Part shown: positions 44,020 through 54,854 of the stretch, piece by piece
Numbering within the stretch: position 1 is the stretch's first letter
Layout of the letters: the number at the start of each line of letters is the position of its first letter
From: Winogradskyella marincola
GTDB lineage: Bacteria; Bacteroidota; Bacteroidia; Flavobacteriales; Flavobacteriaceae
DNA: 64,000 nt
Reading direction: 5' to 3'
Assembly: GCF_029624125.1 (NCBI RefSeq)
Contig: NZ_JARSBN010000002.1
Location: 1-64,000 of the forward strand
The notes under the pieces: model-generated
What the model was told of the DNA's origin: nothing
What the model saw: only the letters and a program-made list of their open reading frames with translations
Databases searched by the model: none
Made by a program: the position numbers and the translations under genes

Positions 44020-47000
44020 TTATGCTTGTGATGTGTTACGTACTTTTGTTTGATAAACCACGTTAGGTTTTACACCAACATGCTCTAACAAGTGATACGC
44101 TCTATCATCTTTTACTAATTCTGAAATTGGACTTCCTTCTTCATTAACATCTCCAAAACGCATTGCTCCACTACCACATGCTGCTGAACATGCACATGCA
44201 TCGTTAAACTCGCCTTTTGCAACAGGTCTTCCTTCGCGCTTAGCTTTAAGGATTACTGCTTGAGTAGACTGGATACAGAAAGAACATTTCTCCATAACAC
44301 CACGTGAACGAACTGTAACATCTGGATTTAACACCATACGTCCTAAATCATCATTCATGTAGTAATCAAACTCATCATTTTGGTTATATAAGAACCAGTT
44401 AAAACGACGAACTTTATACGGACAGTTGTTAGCACAGTAACGAGTACCTACACAACGGTTATACGCCATATGGTTTTGACCTTGACGACCATGCGATGTT
44501 GCTGCTACAGGACAAACTGTTTCACAAGGTGCATGATTACAATGCTGACACATTACTGGTTGGAAAGCTACTTGTGGATTATCCGCTGGATTTTCCATTT
44601 CGCCAAACTCACTTAAAGAGCTTCCTAAGCCAGATATGTTTTCTTTCTTTTCGTTATCACCTTCAAAAGTATCTTGAGAAGAGTAATACCTATCAATACG
44701 CAACCAGTGCATATCTCTACTTCTTCTCATCTCTGATTTACCTACTACAGGCACATTGTTTTCTGCGTGACAAGCGATAACACAAGCTCCACATCCTGTA
44801 CAAGCATTTAAATCTATAGATAAGTTAAAATGATGTCCTACTGTACGGTCAAACTCATCCCATAAGTCTACTTTTGAATCTGTAACTTTTACAGGATTAT
44901 GATCTAATGACACTAGAGGAACAGCATTCCAAACATCTCTGTCTTTTGTATTGAATACCTCTAAGCTAGTTTCTTTAATGATATCTCCACGACCCATTAA
45001 TGTGTTATGCAATTGCACACACGCAAACTCATGTTCACCAGATGCTTTACTTAAAGTTACATCTTGTACAGAGTTAAAGTTGTGGTATAGAGGGTAAGCA
45101 TTAACACCAGTCTTCATTTCTGCTTTCATACCTTCAGCAGTTCTACCATATCCAAATGATAATCCTACTGAACCTTTAGCTTGACCTGGTTGTATAATTA
45201 CAGGAACATTTTCTAAAGTAGTTCCGTTTACTGTAATATTTACTCTGCTTCCGTTTAATCCTCCATTAGCTACATTCCAGTTTTCAAGACCTAAAGCTTC
45301 TGCATCTGCTCTTGAAACTGTTACGTAGTTATCCCAAGTTGTTCTTGTTATTGGATCAGGAAACTCTTGTAACCAAGGGTTATTAGCTTGCTGACCATCT
45401 CCCATTCCTGTCTTAGGATATAGAACCAATTGCATTTTCCCAGCTTTAGCAGATGCTGCTAATTGTCTTGCTGCGTTACCACTTGGTGTTTCTACATTAT
45501 CATCTGAAGAACTATCCTCTACTGCTTCCGTGTTTTCCACACTTGAAGTTGATGTAGACACAAACACACCATCTTGTACAGCTTTGTTAAATGAAGCTCC
45601 ATTTAAAACATCAGCTGTCCAAACAGATTTTAAATAATCTCTGTATGATGTACTATTTCCATTCCATGCTAAAAGCACTTCCTGAAATTGTTTTGTATCG
45701 AATAACGGACGAATTGTTGGCTGCATTAACGAGTAATGTCCTGCTTTTAATTCGAAATCACCCCAAGATTCTAAACTGTGAGGTGCAGCAGCTATATATT
45801 GTGAAAGTACAGATGTTTCATCTTGTTTCATAGAGAATGAAACTGATAATTCTGTTTTCTTTAAACCTTCAGCAAAATCTGTTGAATTAGGAAGTGTGTA
45901 CATTGGGTTAACACCATTCATAATAAGTGCACCAACTTTACCAGCTTTCATATCAGCTACAAGTTGCATTACACCTTTATCACTTCCTTGTCTTGTATTT
46001 ATCGTTGTTTTAGGATCAAATGCCTTACTGTTTAAATACTCATTAATCTCTAAAACTACAGTTTGCGCATTTACGTCTTGAATACCTGCAACAACCACAG
46101 CATTACTACCAGCTTTTGAAATCTCATTTGCAGCAGACTGCACAGCTTTAGCAATGTTTTCTGGTAAATCTACCGAAACAGCACCACCAACTACTAAACT
46201 ATGTAATTTTGCTAGTGCTAATTTCTGTTGATTTGGTGTTAATGGCACACGCTTATCAGCGTTAGCTCCAGATAGAGTCATGTTAGACTCAAACTGGATG
46301 TGACGCGACATTTTTCCATTTTCAGGAATACGCTTTTTTGCATAATCACTATCGAATCCTCCACCTTGCCAATCGCCAAGAAAATCTGCACCAACAGATA
46401 CTATAGTTGTAGCTTTTGAGAAATCGTAATTAGCCATTCCTCTTTTACCATACTTTGCTTGGTATGCATCTAAAGTTGCTGATTCTGAAATCGCATCATA
46501 AGTAACATGCTTTACATTACCATACTTTTCTGCAAACTCAGAAACCAATTTATTAGTTGAAGGACTTGGCGTTGTAGCTGTTAAGAAAACGATTTGCTTA
46601 TCGTCACTTAAGCTATTTAATTTTGAAGTTGTTTCAGAGACAAAAGTATCCCAAGAAATGGTATCATTACCCTTCATTGGCGACTTCACTCTTAAACTAT
46701 CGTATAAACCTAATATAGAAGCATGAACTCTTGCATTAGCACTGCAATTTGTTTTTGCATCTGTATTGTTTTCAATTTTTATTGGTCTTCCTTCTCTTGT
46801 TTTTACCAAAACACTTGCAAAATCATAACCATCTGCAATTGTTGTTGCATAGAAATTAGCAACACCTGGCACTATTTCTTTTGGTTGATTTATATAAGGA
46901 ATTGACTTAATTACCGGACCTTCACAAGCAGCCAACGAAGCAGCAGCTGTACTAAACCCGATATACTTTAAGAAATCACGACGCGATGTAGATGACGACT

Positions 47001-47136
47001 CTAAAGTCTCCTTATCTCCTAAAAACTCATCTGTTGGAATTTCTTCCACAAATTCATTTTGTCTAAGCGTCTCAACAATAGAGCTATTATCGTTTAGCTC
47101 TTCAACACTTTTCCAGTATTTCTTGTTTGATGACAT
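44020..47136 (-). CDS. actB: Alternative Complex III subunit ActB (molybdopterin-oxidoreductase-like, Fe-S)
   Basis: 1038 aa. An N-terminal extension (KKYWKSVEELN) of the type preceding Tat signals in this family runs to residue 50; the twin-arginine motif is SRRDFLKYIG (51-60) with a lipobox ending SLAAC71, so a Tat-exported lipoprotein is predicted. Residues about 90-720 resemble the catalytic molybdopterin domain but the family lacks the cofactor. The C-terminal part holds four cysteine groups for three [4Fe-4S] and one [3Fe-4S] cluster: CTGCGACVIAC, CQHCNHAPCETVCP, CVGTRYCANNCP, CSFCIQ and CACSAAC. It wires quinol electrons to ActA. Confidence 0.97.
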   Translation of the reverse strand: MSSNKKYWKSVEELNDNSSIVETLRQNEFVEEIPTDEFLGDKETLESSSTSRRDFLKYIGFSTAAASLAACEGPVIKSIPYINQPKEIVPGVANFYATTIADGYDFASVLVKTREGRPIKIENNTDAKTNCSANARVHASILGLYDSLRVKSPMKGNDTISWDTFVSETTSKLNSLSDDKQIVFLTATTPSPSTNKLVSEFAEKYGNVKHVTYDAISESATLDAYQAKYGKRGMANYDFSKATTIVSVGADFLGDWQGGGFDSDYAKKRIPENGKMSRHIQFESNMTLSGANADKRVPLTPNQQKLALAKLHSLVVGGAVSVDLPENIAKAVQSAANEISKAGSNAVVVAGIQDVNAQTVVLEINEYLNSKAFDPKTTINTRQGSDKGVMQLVADMKAGKVGALIMNGVNPMYTLPNSTDFAEGLKKTELSVSFSMKQDETSVLSQYIAAAPHSLESWGDFELKAGHYSLMQPTIRPLFDTKQFQEVLLAWNGNSTSYRDYLKSVWTADVLNGASFNKAVQDGVFVSTSTSSVENTEAVEDSSSDDNVETPSGNAARQLAASAKAGKMQLVLYPKTGMGDGQQANNPWLQEFPDPITRTTWDNYVTVSRADAEALGLENWNVANGGLNGSRVNITVNGTTLENVPVIIQPGQAKGSVGLSFGYGRTAEGMKAEMKTGVNAYPLYHNFNSVQDVTLSKASGEHEFACVQLHNTLMGRGDIIKETSLEVFNTKDRDVWNAVPLVSLDHNPVKVTDSKVDLWDEFDRTVGHHFNLSIDLNACTGCGACVIACHAENNVPVVGKSEMRRSRDMHWLRIDRYYSSQDTFEGDNEKKENISGLGSSLSEFGEMENPADNPQVAFQPVMCQHCNHAPCETVCPVAATSHGRQGQNHMAYNRCVGTRYCANNCPYKVRRFNWFLYNQNDEFDYYMNDDLGRMVLNPDVTVRSRGVMEKCSFCIQSTQAVILKAKREGRPVAKGEFNDACACSAACGSGAMRFGDVNEEGSPISELVKDDRAYHLLEHVGVKPNVVYQTKVRNTSQA

Positions 47137-47164
47137 ATAATTCTGAATTACTTCTTATTAAAAA

Positions 47165-48451
47165 TTAATAATGGCACTTACCACATTCTAATCCACCCAT
47201 TTGTGCCGCAGTTAATTGCTCAACACCATACTTTTTAGATAACTCTTCATGAATCTTAGTATAGTAACCGTTGTCTTTAACCTTCACATTTGTCTCCCTA
47301 TGACAATTAATACACCAACCCATTGTTAATGGCGCGTGTTGATACATTACTTCCATTTCCTCTACAGGACCATGACACGTTTGACACTCTACACCTGCAA
47401 CAGACACGTGCTGAGAGTGATTAAAGTACGCAAAGTCTGGTAAATTATGTATACGAATCCATTTCACTGGCTTAGAATCACCTGTATAACCAGTACCATC
47501 CCAACCAACAGCAGCATATAATTTTTGAATCTCTGCATTATAATCCACACCATACTCTTTACCTTCAGCTAAAGTCTCTGGCGCTACTTCTGAAATAGAC
47601 TTGTGACAGTTCATACACACATTCAACGAAGGAATGCCTGATGTTTTACTTACTCTAGCAGAAGAGTGGCAGTATTTACAATCTATACCGTTATCTCCAG
47701 CATGTATTCTATGAGAATAATGAATTGGTTGCACAGGCTCATAACCTTGATCAACACCAACCTGCATAAAATAACCGTACACAAAATAACCACTTGCTAA
47801 CAAAAACAAAATAGCAGTTACCAGTACTAAGAATTGGTTTTCTATAAATGCTTTCCAAATTGGTTTTCTTTGTTCGTCTACAGGAATCTCAATACCCTTT
47901 GCTTCCGCAAAACGATTTAACGTACGCTTTACTAAAACCAAAGCCATTGCTAACAACCCAAATAACACTACCAGTGCACCAAGAATTAGATCATTAGAAA
48001 CTCCTCCTCCAGAACCAGTTCCTTTAACCTCACCAGTTGTTGGAACAGGTTTTTCTTCTTTAGGCTGAGCAGTATATGCTAAAATATCAGTAATATCCTG
48101 ATCACTTAACTGCGGAAATGCAGTCATTGCAGTCTGGTTATACTCGTTAAAAATCTTAACAGCATAAGCATCACCTGCCTTAATTAGAGATGAACTGTTG
48201 CGTATCCACTTGTTTAACCACTCTCTATCCAAACCTTGCTCATCGGCTAATCTTGCTTCTACATTACGCAAAGCAGGACCTGTCATTGGCTTATCTAGCT
48301 TATGACACGCAGCACAGTTAGTATTAAATAAAGATTTTCCGTTTGCTGGATCTCCTTCTTGAGCAGTCAGTGAAGTTGAAAACGTAAGTAATAAAATAAA
48401 ACCAACACTAAATATCTTAGAGGTTAAATTACGGTAAATCACTTGTTTCAT
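47165..48451 (-). CDS. actA: Alternative Complex III subunit ActA with fused N-terminal cytochrome c domain
   Basis: 428 aa. Signal peptide to about residue 30. A monoheme cytochrome c domain carries CAACH (46-50) and a Met region (NQTAMTAFPQLSDQDITDILAYT). A Gly/Ser linker and two membrane helices (about 153-172, 205-230) follow. The C-terminal half has five CxxCH motifs: CKYCH, CMNCH, CQTCH, CINCH and CGKCH, the last at the very end. Pentaheme ActA is the electron-transfer subunit of Alternative Complex III; six hemes in total are predicted for this polypeptide. First gene of the operon. Confidence 0.96.
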   Translation of the reverse strand: MKQVIYRNLTSKIFSVGFILLLTFSTSLTAQEGDPANGKSLFNTNCAACHKLDKPMTGPALRNVEARLADEQGLDREWLNKWIRNSSSLIKAGDAYAVKIFNEYNQTAMTAFPQLSDQDITDILAYTAQPKEEKPVPTTGEVKGTGSGGGVSNDLILGALVVLFGLLAMALVLVKRTLNRFAEAKGIEIPVDEQRKPIWKAFIENQFLVLVTAILFLLASGYFVYGYFMQVGVDQGYEPVQPIHYSHRIHAGDNGIDCKYCHSSARVSKTSGIPSLNVCMNCHKSISEVAPETLAEGKEYGVDYNAEIQKLYAAVGWDGTGYTGDSKPVKWIRIHNLPDFAYFNHSQHVSVAGVECQTCHGPVEEMEVMYQHAPLTMGWCINCHRETNVKVKDNGYYTKIHEELSKKYGVEQLTAAQMGGLECGKCHY

Positions 48452-49118: not shown

Positions 49119-51854
49119 TTATTTTAATTTCTTTTTTACTTCAACCTCTTGGAACGCTTCTAAAATATCTCCTTCATTGATATCATTGTAACCTTTAATT
49201 TGCATACCACAATCGTAACCTTTAGAAACTTCCTTAACATCATCTTTAAATCGTTTTAATGATGATAATTCACCTGTGTAAACCACAACTCCATCTCTAA
49301 TAAGTCTTATACCAGAATTTCTGTAAATTTTACCATTAGTTACCATACAACCTGCAATGGTACCAATCTTAGAGATCTTAAATGTTTCTCTAATTTCTGC
49401 TGTACCTGTAACCTCTTCTTTAAGCTCTGGAGATAACATACCTTCCATAGCATCTTTAAGGTCATTAATAGCATCGTAGATGATAGAATATGTTCTGATA
49501 TCGATTTCTTCTTTATCGGCAGTTATTCTGGCATTTCCAACAGGTCTAACGTTAAAGCCAACAATAATTGCATCAGAAGCAGATGCTAACAACACATCAC
49601 TTTCTGTAATTGCTCCAACACCTTTGTGGATAATATTTACCTGAATTTCTTCTGTAGACAACTTCTGGAATGAATCAGTTAATGCTTCAACAGAACCATC
49701 CACATCACCTTTAAGGATAATGTTCAGCTCTTGGAAATCACCAAGCGCTATACGTCTTCCAATTTCATCAAGTGTAATATGACGTTGAGTTCTAACAGAC
49801 TGTTCACGTTGTAATTGTGTACGTTTAGCAGCAATTTGTTTTGCTTCACGCTCATCTTCAAATACATTGAATTTATCACCTGCTTGTGGTGCACCATCCA
49901 GACCTAATATTGATACTGGTGTTGATGGCCCTGCTTCTACTATGTCGTGACCACGCTCATCGTGCATAGCTTTAACCTTACCACTATTCTTACCTGCTAA
50001 AACGTAGTCTCCTACTTTTAAGGTACCAGCTTGTACTAAAATTGTTGATACATAACCTCTACCTTTATCTAAATAAGCTTCTACTACTGTTCCGCTTGCT
50101 GCTTTGTTAGGGTTAGCTTTTAATTCTAATAATTCTGCTTCAAGTAATACTTTTTCCAAAAGCTCTTTTACTCCAGTACCAAATTTTGCTGATATATCAT
50201 GTGATTGAATTTTTCCTCCCCAATCTTCAACTAATAAATTCATATTAGCTAATCCTTCTTTCACCTTGTCTGGGTTTGCGTCTGGCTTATCAATTTTATT
50301 TATAGCGAATACGATTGGAACACCTGCCGCTTGAGCATGAGAAATTGCTTCTTTGGTTTGTGGCATTATAGCGTCATCAGCAGCTACAACAATAATAGCA
50401 ATATCTGTTACTTGAGCACCACGAGCACGCATTGCCGTAAAGGCTTCGTGACCTGGTGTATCTAAGAATGCTATTTTTTGACCATTATCTAACTGAACTC
50501 CATAAGCACCAATATGCTGAGTAATTCCACCAGATTCACCTGCAATCACATTTTCTTCACGAATGTAATCTAGTAATGATGTTTTACCATGATCTACGTG
50601 ACCCATCACTGTTACGATTGGTGCACGAGATTTTAAATCTTTTGGATCGTCTTCTACTGTTTCTATTGATTCTTCAATATCTGCAGTAACAAACTCTACT
50701 TCATATCCAAACTCTTCTGCTACGATGGATAATGTTTCTGCGTCTAAACGCTGATTCATTGTTACCATCATACCCAAAGACATACATGCAGAAATAACTT
50801 GTGTTACACCAACATCCATCATTGTTGCAACTTCACTTACAGTAACAAATTCTGTTACTTTAAGGATTTTGCTTTCTGCTGCTTCTGCTTGAAGTTCCTT
50901 TTGAGATTGCTCTCTATGTCGATCTCTTTTTTCTCGACGGTTTTTAGCTCCTTTTCCTTTACTAGATTTTCCTTGTAGCTTTTCTAGTGTTTCTCTTACT
51001 TGCTTTTGTACTTCTTCTTCACTAGGCTCTTCCTTAACTACTTTTGGACGAGTACCTCTTCCTTTGCCTCCTCTTCTATTATCAAAGTTTGGTCTTCCGC
51101 CTCCATCATTGCCTCCTTTGCTAATTCTACGTCTCTTACGTTTATTATTGTCATTAGAAGAATCTGTCTTTTTATCTTCTTTTTTCTTCTTAGGCTTATT
51201 AAACTGAGATAAATCTATTTTTTTACCTGTAGTAACCGGACCTGTTAGTTTTTGGTATTGAGTTTTTAACTTATCATCTGTCCTAGGCTCAGTGGACTCT
51301 GGTTTCTTCTCAACTTTAGGTTCTACCTTTTTTGGCTCTTCTTTTTTAGGCTCAACCTTCTTAGGCTCCACTTTTACAGGCTCAACCTTTTTAGGTTCTT
51401 CTTTCTTAGGCTCCTCTTTTTTAGGTTTTTCCTCTACTACCTTTTGTTTTTCTTCTTTAACAACAGGCTTTTCCTCTTCTTTCTTCTCCTCTTTAGCTTT
51501 TGGCTTTTTATCTAAATCGATTTTACCTATCTGCTTTGGACCACTAAGCTCAGCCTTTGCTTTTACAACAGACTCTTTTACAGCTTCTTTCTTTTCCTTT
51601 TCTACAATTTCGCGTTCGCGCTGCTCACGAAGCTTCTCTTTTTCCTTGAGTTTTGCTTCACTTACCTCTTGAGCTTTTTCACGCTTAGATGCATCTGTTT
51701 GAAATTCATCAGATAACGTGTTGTAAACCTCTTGCGAAATTTTTGTATTAGGACTTTTCTCAATTTCGATGCCCTTAGACTCTAAAAAGTCTACTGCACG
51801 GTCTAATGAGATGTTTAGTTCTCTTAATACTTTATTAATTCTAATTTGAGCCAT
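49119..51854 (-). CDS. infB: Translation initiation factor IF-2
   Basis: 911 aa. An IF2-N domain at the start ([26 protein letters not shown]) is followed by a long low-complexity charged region, including pentapeptide [K/V][K/V]xEP repeats at about 144-182 and a basic Gly/Arg stretch (about 230-270). The GTPase domain has [29 protein letters not shown] and NKIDKP. Domains II-IV follow to the end. It positions fMet-tRNA on the 30S subunit. Last gene of rimP-nusA-infB. Confidence 0.98.
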
Positions 51855-51925: not shown

Positions 51926-53158
51926 TTAGTCTTCAAACTCTTCCTTAAGAATTCTAATGACTTCTAATATTGTTTCTTCTTCTAAATCAGTACGTTTTAC
52001 TAAATCGTCTACGTCTTGTTCTAGAATGCTTTTTGCTGTATCCATACCAGCTTTGCTGAATTCATCAATAATCCATCCATCGATTTCATCTGAGAATTCT
52101 TTTAATTCTACATCTTCTTCTGCACCTTCTCTAAACACGTCTATCTCATAACCTGTTAACTGACCTGCTAAACGAATGTTATGTCCACCTCTACCAATAG
52201 CTTTGGACACTTCTTCTGGCTTTAACAACACCTCAGCACGCATGTTTTCTTCGTCTAACTTTAAAGATGTTACTCTTGCTGGACTTAATGCTCTTGTTAC
52301 ATACAGTTGCGTGTTGTTTGTAAAATTAATTACATCTATATTCTCGTTACCAAGCTCGCGCACAATACCATGAATACGAGACCCTTTCATACCAACACAA
52401 GCTCCTACAGGATCTATTCTGTCGTCATAAGAATCTACAGCTACTTTAGCTTTTTCTCCTGGTATACGAACTACTTTTTTCACTGTTATTAAACCGTCAA
52501 ATACTTCAGGAATTTCTTGCTCAAATAACTTTTCTAAAAACAATGGTGATGTTCTAGACATTATAATTGCAGGCTTACTTCCTTTTAATTCAACACTTTC
52601 TATAACTCCTCTTACATTTTCACCCTTTCTAAAGAAATCTGAAGGTATTTGTCTGTCTTTTGGCAAGATAATTTCATTACCATCATCGTCTAATAAAATT
52701 ATAGCTCTATGACGGATGTGATGTACCTCTGCAGTATAAATTTCACCTTCTAACTCTTTAAATTGCTTATAAATGTTAGTATTATCGTGCTCATGAATTT
52801 TAGAAATAAGATTTTGTCTTAATGCTAAAATTGAACGTCTTCCTAAATCAATTAACTTTACTTCTTCTGCAACGTCTTCACCTACTTCAAAATCTGGCTC
52901 TATTTTTTGAGCTTCTGATAATGCAATCTCTTGATTAGGATCCTCAACTTCACCATCTGCAACTACGATACGATTTCTCCAAATCTCTAAATCACCTTTA
53001 TCTGGATTGATAATGATATCAAAGTTGTCGTCGTCTCCGTACTTCTTTTTTAAAGCATTACGTAACACATCTTCTAGAATCGCCATCAGCGTCACTCTAT
53101 CAATTAACTTATCGTCCTTAAATTCTGAAAATGACTCTATTAACGCTACATTTTCCAT
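51926..53158 (-). CDS. nusA: Transcription elongation/termination factor NusA
   Basis: 410 aa. NusA N-terminal RNAP-binding domain (about 1-130, LIDRVTLMAILEDVLRNALKKKYG), an S1 domain (about 130-205), and KH domains with GACVGMKGSRIHGIVRELGNENIDV and AIGRGGHNIRLAGQLTGYEIDV. The C-terminal acidic repeats of E. coli NusA are reduced to one short segment, usual outside Proteobacteria. It lies between rimP and infB, the classic order, 12 nt after rimP. Confidence 0.98.
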   Translation of the reverse strand: MENVALIESFSEFKDDKLIDRVTLMAILEDVLRNALKKKYGDDDNFDIIINPDKGDLEIWRNRIVVADGEVEDPNQEIALSEAQKIEPDFEVGEDVAEEVKLIDLGRRSILALRQNLISKIHEHDNTNIYKQFKELEGEIYTAEVHHIRHRAIILLDDDGNEIILPKDRQIPSDFFRKGENVRGVIESVELKGSKPAIIMSRTSPLFLEKLFEQEIPEVFDGLITVKKVVRIPGEKAKVAVDSYDDRIDPVGACVGMKGSRIHGIVRELGNENIDVINFTNNTQLYVTRALSPARVTSLKLDEENMRAEVLLKPEEVSKAIGRGGHNIRLAGQLTGYEIDVFREGAEEDVELKEFSDEIDGWIIDEFSKAGMDTAKSILEQDVDDLVKRTDLEEETILEVIRILKEEFED

Positions 53159-53170
53159 AATTGAATTGAA

Positions 53171-53635
53171 TTAAAATTTTATTTTAACTTTTGCTTCTTT
53201 AATGTTATCAAAAGCAATATTAACTTCTTTAATTATTGTTACCTTACCTTTTCCTACTGGTTTTGGTTCTCTAGCTTTCCACTTTAACATCACCCCTTCT
53301 AGTGTAACATCTGTTAATTGCCCTTCTAGCACATTACCTTCTACAGTTTTTATTTCTAGGTTTCTACCTATATGCTTATTATACTGTCTTGGTTTTTGCA
53401 AAGGCGATGCTGCACCACAAGAGGATACTTCTAATGAAAAGTCTTGCTCTTCTCTATCAAGATTGTGCTCAATGGCTCTACTTACAAAGATGCAATCTTC
53501 TACTAACACACCATTATCGCCATCTAAAATAACTTTAATGGTATTATCTGATAAAATTTCAAAATCAATAAGGATTAAATCCTTACGCTGATCTAGTGCC
53601 TGATCTAATAAATCTTTTACTGTATCCTTAAACAT
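53171..53635 (-). CDS. rimP: Ribosome maturation factor RimP
   Basis: 154 aa from the ATG at 53635 (MFKDTVKDLLDQAL), which matches the normal RimP length. A longer frame to 53728 would start upstream of the -7 element and read through the leader hairpin, so it is rejected. The VSRAIEHNLDREEQDFSLEVSSCGAASPLQKPRQYNKHIGRNLEI block is typical. RimP aids 30S subunit assembly. First gene of the operon, behind the leader hairpin at 53650-53673. Confidence 0.95.
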   Translation of the reverse strand: MFKDTVKDLLDQALDQRKDLILIDFEILSDNTIKVILDGDNGVLVEDCIFVSRAIEHNLDREEQDFSLEVSSCGAASPLQKPRQYNKHIGRNLEIKTVEGNVLEGQLTDVTLEGVMLKWKAREPKPVGKGKVTIIKEVNIAFDNIKEAKVKIKF

Positions 53636-53649
53636 CTCTTGATATAAAA

Positions 53650-53673
53650 AGAGAGGACTTTTTCGTCCTCTCT
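53650..53673 (-). terminator. Terminator-like hairpin in the rimP leader
   Basis: Minus-strand transcript: stem AGAGAGGAC, loop GAAAAA, stem GTCCTCTCT, then TTTTATA. This is an intrinsic-terminator form 15 nt before the rimP ATG and about 20 nt after the predicted transcription start. A leader attenuator is plausible; see findings. Confidence 0.8.
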
Positions 53674-53698
53674 CGTTTTCTTTCCGTAAACAATTGTG

Positions 53699-53729
53699 CA
53701 AATATACAATATTATATGAACTTTTCAAA
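53699..53729 (-). promoter_or_regulatory. Promoter of the rimP-nusA-infB operon
   Basis: TTTG (53729-53726), 19-nt spacer, TATATTTG (53706-53699): a full Bacteroidota promoter. Transcription would begin near 53693, giving a leader of about 58 nt that contains the hairpin. Confidence 0.82.
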
Positions 53730-53789: not shown

Positions 53790-54614
53790 ATGAATAGAAT
53801 CCTAGTCCCTACTGATTTTTCGGAGCAAGCAACTAATGCTTTGGAAGTTGCTGCCATGTTAGCAAAAAAACATGATGCCGAAATTTACTTATTACACATG
53901 ATGGAAATACCTATGCAACATATTGATCCAGGATCTGTAAAAAGTGACATTCCTGAAACGCTTTTTTTTATGAAACTAGCGCATAAAAAATTTGAAGATC
54001 TTATGGATAGTGATTTTTTAGAGGGCATTACTGTTCATGAAACTGTAAAGGCTGATATTACATTCAATGAGATAAAAGATGCTTGCAAAGAATTTGACAT
54101 TGACTTAATAGTTATGGGCTCTCATGGTGCTTCTGGCCTCAAAGAAATGTTTATTGGTTCTAATGCTGAAAAGGTAGTTAGATCTTCTGATGTTCCTGTG
54201 CTGGTTATTAAAAATAAGCACAACAGCTTTAATATTAAAAACTTTGTTTTTGCCTCCGACTTTAAAAATGACAATAGAGAAACTTATAAACAAGCCGTAA
54301 AGTTTGCGGAATTATTTGATGCTAAAATTCACCTATTACTAGTTAATACTGCAAATAATTTTATTACAACTCACGAATCTAGAACTCGAATAAACGATTT
54401 TATTTCTGGGCAGAGTTTTGAAAACTATACTATAAACGTGCACAACGACTTTAGTATAGAACAAGGTATCTTAACTTTTTCTCAAGAAATTGACGCGGAC
54501 CTAATAGGTATAAGTACACATGGCAGACAAGGTATTGCTCATTTTTTTAATGGCAGCATAAGTGAAGACTTAGTAAACCATGCTAAAAGACCAGTAATAA
54601 CTTTTAAGATATAA
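53790..54614 (+). CDS. Universal stress protein with two UspA domains
   Basis: 274 aa. Domain 1 (about 1-142) ends in VMGSHGASGLKEMFIGSNAEKVV...VPVLVI, which includes the Gly-rich ATP-binding pattern G-x2-G-x9-GS. Domain 2 (about 148-274) has GISTHGRQGIAHFFNGSISEDLVN...RPVITFKI with a matching Gly pattern. Tandem Usp proteins are common stress or metabolic regulators in flavobacteria; the precise role is unknown. The likely promoter has TATTTTCG (53747-53754), one mismatch to the -7 consensus. It diverges from the rimP operon and ends at a strong terminator. Confidence 0.94.
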   Translation: MNRILVPTDFSEQATNALEVAAMLAKKHDAEIYLLHMMEIPMQHIDPGSVKSDIPETLFFMKLAHKKFEDLMDSDFLEGITVHETVKADITFNEIKDACKEFDIDLIVMGSHGASGLKEMFIGSNAEKVVRSSDVPVLVIKNKHNSFNIKNFVFASDFKNDNRETYKQAVKFAELFDAKIHLLLVNTANNFITTHESRTRINDFISGQSFENYTINVHNDFSIEQGILTFSQEIDADLIGISTHGRQGIAHFFNGSISEDLVNHAKRPVITFKI

Positions 54615-54731: not shown

Positions 54732-54772
54732 AAAAAAAAAAAAAAATCCTTACTCTAATAGAATAAGGATTT
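54732..54772 (-). terminator. Terminator of tRNA-Gln
   Basis: Minus-strand stem AAATCCTTA/TAAGGATTT (54772-54764 with 54752-54744), followed by a tract of about 15 T (plus-strand A run 54732-54746). It is just downstream of the tRNA 3' end at 54782. Confidence 0.88.
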
Positions 54773-54781
54773 AGATTTCAG

Positions 54782-54854
54782 TTGGCCTACTAGGGCTCGA
54801 ACCTAGACTCTTCTGGACCAAAACCAGACGTGTTGCCAGTTACACCATAGGCCA
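54782..54854 (-). tRNA. tRNA-Gln (anticodon UUG)
   Basis: 73 nt. Acceptor stem TGGCCTA/TAGGCCA with discriminator A at 54782, anticodon stem TCTGG/CCAGA with loop TTTTGGT (anticodon TTG), and T arm CTAGG-TTCGAGC-CCTAG are all visible. The 3' CCA is not encoded (the next bases read CTG). It has its own promoter and terminator. The stretch from 54615 to 55006 between protein genes holds this tRNA, two terminators and promoter elements. Confidence 0.96.

Follow-up and report, generated by a model that had tools for sequence, protein, structure and literature searches.

Organization of the rimP-nusA-infB locus

The stretch of Winogradskyella marincola DNA analyzed here, hereafter the window, is 64,000 nucleotides long (contig NZ_JARSBN010000002.1, positions 1 to 64,000) and carries the rimP-nusA-infB operon on its minus strand. 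The genes and leader features of the locus are as follows.

49119–51854, minus strand: infB, encoding IF-2 (PF11987, PF04760)
51926–53158, minus strand: nusA (PF08529, PF13184)
53171–53635, minus strand: rimP, the first gene of the operon (PF02576 and PF17384), with its ATG at 53635
53643–53650, minus strand: U-tract UUUUUAUA (tail TTTTTATA), whose interruptions are kept across the genus
53651–53672, minus strand: terminator hairpin GAGAGGAC-GAAAAA-GTCCTCTC, assigned by fold, conservation and covariation
53691–53695, minus strand: estimated transcription start region, inferred from the -7 box
53699–53706, minus strand: -7 box TATATTTG of the TAnnTTTG type, assigned by sequence and comparison
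53726–53729, minus strand: TTTG, the -33 element of the promoter, assigned by sequence, 19 nt before the -7 box
53790–54614, plus strand: universal stress protein gene (PF00582), divergent from rimP

The original prediction had described a TTTG-N19-TATATTTG promoter, a hairpin, a tail and the distances between them, and all of these were present on the minus strand. The whole leader is about 60 nt long. Its stem of 8 bp can be extended with A-U and G-U pairs to 9–10 and carries the loop GAAAAA; it lies about 24–26 nt from the -7 box and 15 nt from the rimP ATG. Since the upstream neighbor is divergent, the hairpin is not the terminator of a preceding gene.

Elsewhere in the window, ORFs on the minus strand at 44020–48451 would encode a multiheme cytochrome and a large protein of Fe-S molybdoprotein type, which may resemble subunits of alternative complex III.

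The motif TAnnTTTG is the published -7 consensus of Flavobacterium sigmaA, as described for Flavobacterium psychrophilum (PMC9723704). It was located no more than 62 nt 5' of the hairpin in 54/54 order-level and 18/18 class-level leaders, compared with approximately 5% in shuffled sequence, but in only 17 of 61 phylum leaders from outside the class. Among the leaders displayed from a set of 92, which excludes locus L210 for having no promoter match, 12–30 nt separate the box from the hairpin, a gap too short to hold a riboswitch.

Stability of the hairpin and comparison with other terminators

The folded rimP leader reached -20 kcal/mol (z = -3.4), and an equally stable fold was obtained in 1 of 200 shuffles; the dG of the hairpin alone was -13.8. 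A generic terminator scan over 18 kb yielded no excess of sites (9 sites vs 9.3 expected from shuffles). The terminator pattern by itself therefore proves nothing, and it is the position that discriminates. Within 464 kb of the same contig, terminator-like hairpins were counted at a hairpin score of at least 25 and, for leaders, within 110 nt of the start. Of 92 divergent leaders, only 2 had such a hairpin, namely those of rimP and of an ORF at 83038. Where the upstream gene is codirectional and might itself be terminated by the hairpin, the count was 18 of 120 leaders, and for gene ends it was 62 of 195. The ORFs for this count, as for the comparison with gene-end terminators, were called by a simple longest-ATG rule.

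The other divergent leader with such a hairpin precedes an ORF at contig positions 83038–85887 on the plus strand (L056/L057). This hairpin ends 58 nt 5' of the ATG in a gap of 599 nt; it may represent a second attenuator or mark where an unrecognized small gene ends.

To characterize the rimP element further, 52 order-level rimP leaders were set against 63 terminators at gene ends in the window's genome. An A-tract 5' of the stem was present in 1/52 leaders vs 39/63 gene ends, and runs of 7 T in 2/52 vs 27/63. Both position 6 and position 8 of the U-tract were interrupted in 42/52 rimP leaders vs 7/63 gene ends, where 37 of the 52 rows come from one genus and are thus non-independent; outside this genus, the double interruption was found in 6 of 15 rows. 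In the wider phylum it occurred in 3 of 67 leaders, and runs of 7 or more T occurred in 18 of 67. The exact interruption of the U-tract is thus mainly a trait of the genus.

In Bacillus subtilis, distal U-tract interruptions have been tied to NusA- and NusG-dependent terminators, and NusA is described as aiding suboptimal hairpins (PMC8060035). The window tract TTTTTATA carries a distal interruption of this kind. The rimP hairpin, on the other hand, is stronger than 53 of the 63 gene-end terminators and so departs from the weak hairpins of NusA-dependent attenuators, which are a tendency in that source rather than a strict definition; because NusA aids suboptimal hairpins, this strength counts against a role for NusA.

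A tRNA-Gln gene (anticodon TTG) lies at 54854–54781 on the minus strand and is followed by a strong hairpin with a T-run at 54772–54744, which looks like an ordinary tRNA terminator.

Conservation of the leader hairpin

Of 60 order-level genomes, 54, the window's own among them, had a RimP match. Lack of conservation of the hairpin, one of the outcomes that would have refuted the original prediction, was not seen: a hairpin with a T-tract was detected before rimP at all 54 of these loci, the window's own included, compared with 17/540 (3%) in shuffled sequence. The detector used here is fold-based and permits bulges; a strict perfect-stem script missed the hairpin in 15 of the 80 phylum loci described below. 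Between stem and start codon lie 11–29 nt in the 52 strict cases of the order. The exact motif GAGRGGAC-N3-6-GTCCYCTCTTTTTATA was found in 40 of 60 genomes, in a single copy each and directly 5' of rimP, and the reversed pattern used as a control gave 0 matches in the 60 genomes.

At the phylum level, RimP was identified in 289 of 296 genomes. From the best-scoring listed part of these 289, 80 loci were picked by hand to represent many families, so groups with weak RimP_N scores are under-represented. The fold-based detector found a hairpin with a T-tract before rimP in 79 of the 80 (shuffled, 176/800 or 22%), and L128 was the sole locus where it found none. Since the shuffled rate is this high, the total carries more weight than any individual phylum case. 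In six loci of other classes (L095, L120, L127, L131, L133, and L135), two tandem hairpins with T-tracts were seen before rimP by eye. These recall the tandem terminators of Gammaproteobacteria, and the first of the two could end the upstream gene.

A separate set of 80 named loci was fetched by NusA similarity; the closest named NusA, at 99% identity, belongs to a Winogradskyella MAG, and the 15 best were all labelled Winogradskyella. In 79 of them rimP was present with sufficient upstream sequence; in the excluded one (L282), rimP was out of reach. The strict motif was found at 66 of these 79 loci, all 66 with TAnnTTTG upstream, and the remaining 13 had variant stems by eye, for example GAGCGGAC/GTCCGCTC.

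A model built from the order (R1) matched 187 of 199 family genomes at E values up to 1, and the best 30 of these 187 matches all lay before rimP (30/30). A harder sample was composed of 30 family genomes: all 12 that R1 failed to match, plus 18 of the 19 whose match exceeded E 0.1. Of these, 21 yielded RimP, among them 8 of the 12 genomes without a model match, and 9 gave no RimP match. A hairpin with a T-tract was present in 21/21 of these leaders, 19 at dG of -7 or lower and two at -5.9 and -6.1. Twenty additional family stretches (8 second matches and 12 low-ranking ones) comprised 12 rimP loci and 8 others, of which 7 lay directly after an ORF stop, the eighth being L216. As for a wider regulon, model matches in the window's own genome besides rimP were weak (E of 0.9 or more). 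Four family loci (L193, L195, L198, and L200) carry the same hairpin more than 100 nt 5' of rimP, the start codon being preceded by a long additional segment.

Stem sequence and covariation

The stem GAGRGGAC/GTCCYCTC is nearly fixed in the genus. Many relatives have GAGGGGAC/GTCCCCTC in its place, and others have a C-rich 5' arm. Across the phylum, the stems are clade-specific, such as GAGGGGAC, TCGCCC, AAGTCCCGC, ATAGCCCG, AAAGTGGGG, and GTGAGCG, and these leaders rule out a single universal stem motif. As the stem sequence varies in this way, up to C-rich 5' arms, it is the fold and the position that are kept rather than one motif.

Changes on both sides of a pair were found in 5 of 8 pairs among 36 order-level hairpins (27 such cells vs 6.8 in shuffles) and in 7 of 8 pairs among 82 distinct class hairpins (shuffles, 4.0), with 40 cells vs 7.9. 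RNAalifold predicted the same 8 pairs from the 82-row class alignment, and one stem pair was found as G-C, A-U, G-U, and C-G. Because the alignment rows were picked by the hairpin detector, the percentage of paired positions is biased toward structure, and covariation is judged more fairly from the double-change and slide controls. Alignment A1 excludes L040, L046, L054, the f5 loci L042 and L043, and duplicates; from alignment A2, L259 and 89 duplicate hairpins were removed, and a small number of misaligned rows (L040, L042, and L082) remain in it.

The claim of an intrinsic terminator within the leader found support in the conserved position, the U-tract, the covarying stem, the upstream promoter motif and the divergent neighbor. 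With the order and spacing of these parts conserved as well, a premature intrinsic terminator inside the rimP leader is strongly supported at the level of sequence.

Other regulatory elements sought in the leader

A riboswitch or T-box was rejected, as no sensor domain was recognized in the gap of about 24 nt between box and hairpin, and cmscan gave no Rfam match to the leader. Rfam matches at E values up to 10 were below their gathering scores and were disregarded. A leader peptide was likewise rejected: the window leader has no ATG or GTG between the -7 box and rimP, and one TTG. An ATG does occur in the leaders of some relatives and is not common to the others. No antiterminator was found in the window leader, where a single 5' 5-mer (AAAGA) could pair with the stem region, and no larger conserved structure was seen in this leader.

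A boxA for NusB/S10 was also considered. The rRNA leaders for this comparison were taken from relatives, as the window's own assembly gave no 16S match. Five of the seven displayed rRNA loci contain GTTCATTAACA, which is boxA-like by eye when set beside E. coli boxA. A TTTA piece was present in 47 of 92 rimP leaders, with no clear match to this boxA-like sequence, and the candidate was not supported.

Relation to known rimP and nusA leaders

In its original paper, the B. subtilis nusA attenuator is said to work by NusA feedback without an antiterminator. A review reports for this operon NusA-stimulated termination in its own 5' leader, with feedback (PMC12288461). The original prediction, which mentioned other modes of nusA autoregulation, overlooked this published termination by NusA feedback. 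The window leader resembles the B. subtilis attenuator in being a nusA-operon leader terminator without an antiterminator. The two differ in that NusA dependence is reported for B. subtilis (PMC12288461) and is suggested here by analogy, and in length, which is approximately 180 nt in B. subtilis (PMC2965389) and approximately 60 nt here.

The rimP-leader of Naville and Gautheret (2010) is described as a short terminator hairpin with a U-stretch, 4–130 nt before rimP of rimP-nusA-infB, with no larger conserved element, and NusA feedback was proposed for it; it was reported in the majority of the species surveyed, including Firmicutes and Gammaproteobacteria (PMC2965389). The window element agrees with this description in its position (15 nt), its terminator hairpin and U-stretch and its lack of an antiterminator. 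It differs in the stem, for which a highly conserved GGGc(...)gCCC is reported (PMC2965389), whereas the window has GGAC...GTCC (GAGAGGAC/GTCCTCTC). The words Bacteroidetes and Flavobacter do not appear in the main text of that paper, its supplementary species lists aside. Rfam family RF01770 (threshold of 47 bits) covers leaders of the same gene, rimP; the window locus was absent among the 68 genome matches listed up to E 10 in a filtered first look, and cmscan gave no RF01770 match at the rimP locus. Having neither the GGGc...gCCC stem nor an RF01770 match, the window element is not a member of the sequence-defined rimP families; it is better described as a leader terminator that would act in the manner of the rimP-leader and of the nusA attenuator of B. 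subtilis.

In Streptococcus agalactiae gbs0413-gbs0418 (rimP-nusA-infB), termination 31 nt after the start site was reported by RNA-seq, and NusA feedback was proposed (PMC4448216). The likeness is an intrinsic terminator very near the start site, which was observed by RNA-seq there and is predicted here. In E. coli metY-nusA-infB, terminators t1 and t2 lie upstream of rimP and NusA acts on its own operon; that leader differs in being long and in containing metY, multiple promoters and RNase III sites (PMC6511841).

A structured 5' element upstream of rimP has been listed for F. psychrophilum, named without a mechanism, with conservation in other genera of Flavobacteriaceae and no Rfam match (PMC9723704). 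This is very probably the same element as that of the window, and since it was listed already, the rimP element is not new as an observation. The passages and sections covered here gave no reading of it as a premature terminator and no account of phylum-wide retention or stem turnover, and rimP and nusA are unmentioned in the main text of a B. theta transcriptome paper (PMC7366714).

Proposed mechanism and alternative explanations

The rimP leader element is probably a minimal transcription attenuator under NusA-stimulated feedback, with the part played by NusA drawn from the analogous leaders above; by the same analogy, a NusA feedback loop in Bacteroidota is plausible. RNA polymerase would initiate about 20 nt 5' of the hairpin, and a leader of roughly 50 nt would be made. 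Part of the transcripts would terminate at the U-tract while the start codon of rimP is still untranscribed, and the remaining polymerases would read through into rimP-nusA-infB. NusA, possibly together with NusG, would stimulate hairpin folding and pausing on the interrupted U-tract, and more NusA would thus lead to more termination and less operon mRNA. Because an antiterminator and a leader peptide are absent from the window leader, the polymerase-bound factor NusA is the most likely variable input. With 15 nt between stem and ATG, the start codon should not yet have been copied when the polymerase reaches the U-tract and, judging from these distances, a ribosome at rimP could presumably not sway the decision. 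We infer that transcription starts at this site, that termination takes place in vivo and that NusA controls it.

A fixed partial terminator, which would stop a constant fraction of polymerases irrespective of the NusA level and set expression without feedback, is unlikely. The strong hairpin (dG -13.8) would suit it, as would the window leader, in which nothing was recognized beyond promoter, hairpin and U-tract; a weaker promoter, however, would presumably achieve the same, and regulation is favored both by the retention of the element before the nusA operon (54/54 and 79/80) and by the report that NusA feeds back on its leader in B. subtilis (PMC12288461). Binding of the leader by another product or ligand, be it RimP, IF-2, a ribosomal protein or NusB/S10 at a boxA-like site, is considerably less probable. 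Protein recognition would fit the genus-fixed stem, but the stem sequence differs across the phylum while fold and position are kept, and the TTTA piece is present in only about half of the leaders with no clear boxA-like match.

It is slightly less probable still that the hairpin acts on rimP translation or mRNA stability rather than on transcription. Its distance from the start codon, 15 nt in the window and 11–29 nt in the strict order-level cases, would allow this, but a T-tract directly 3' of the stem is kept alongside it in almost all loci, and the hairpins more than 100 nt from the start in the four family loci are unexpected for a role in translation. That the hairpin is an ordinary gene-end terminator or arose by chance is highly improbable: although terminator-like sites were no more frequent than expected in the 18-kb scan of the window, the gene upstream is divergent, a promoter motif stands 5' of the hairpin, the A-tract common before gene-end stems is nearly absent from the leaders, and the hairpin is conserved at order and phylum levels alike.

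Extending the NusA-stimulated attenuator further, we tentatively suggest, with some doubt, that the promoter-hairpin-U-tract unit of about 50 nt may be a complete NusA autoregulatory switch of the entire phylum, an old circuit kept by its function. If so, sensor, effector and target would be the elongation complex itself, and the stem sequence would be able to drift freely, even swapping its G-rich arm. Such drift would explain why motif-based families (RF01770, GGGc...gCCC) miss the element here.

Implications for Bacteroidota

The leader terminator of the nusA operon, described for Firmicutes and Gammaproteobacteria in the literature cited above, is extended by this analysis to nearly every sampled rimP locus of Bacteroidota, including groups outside the class of the window. 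The comparison suggests that position and fold, and not stem sequence, are what is kept. A leader terminator would also probably account for the structured element that has been listed 5' of rimP in a flavobacterium. The leader of about 60 nt may serve as a minimal test bed for the question of whether the NusA of Bacteroidota stimulates intrinsic termination.
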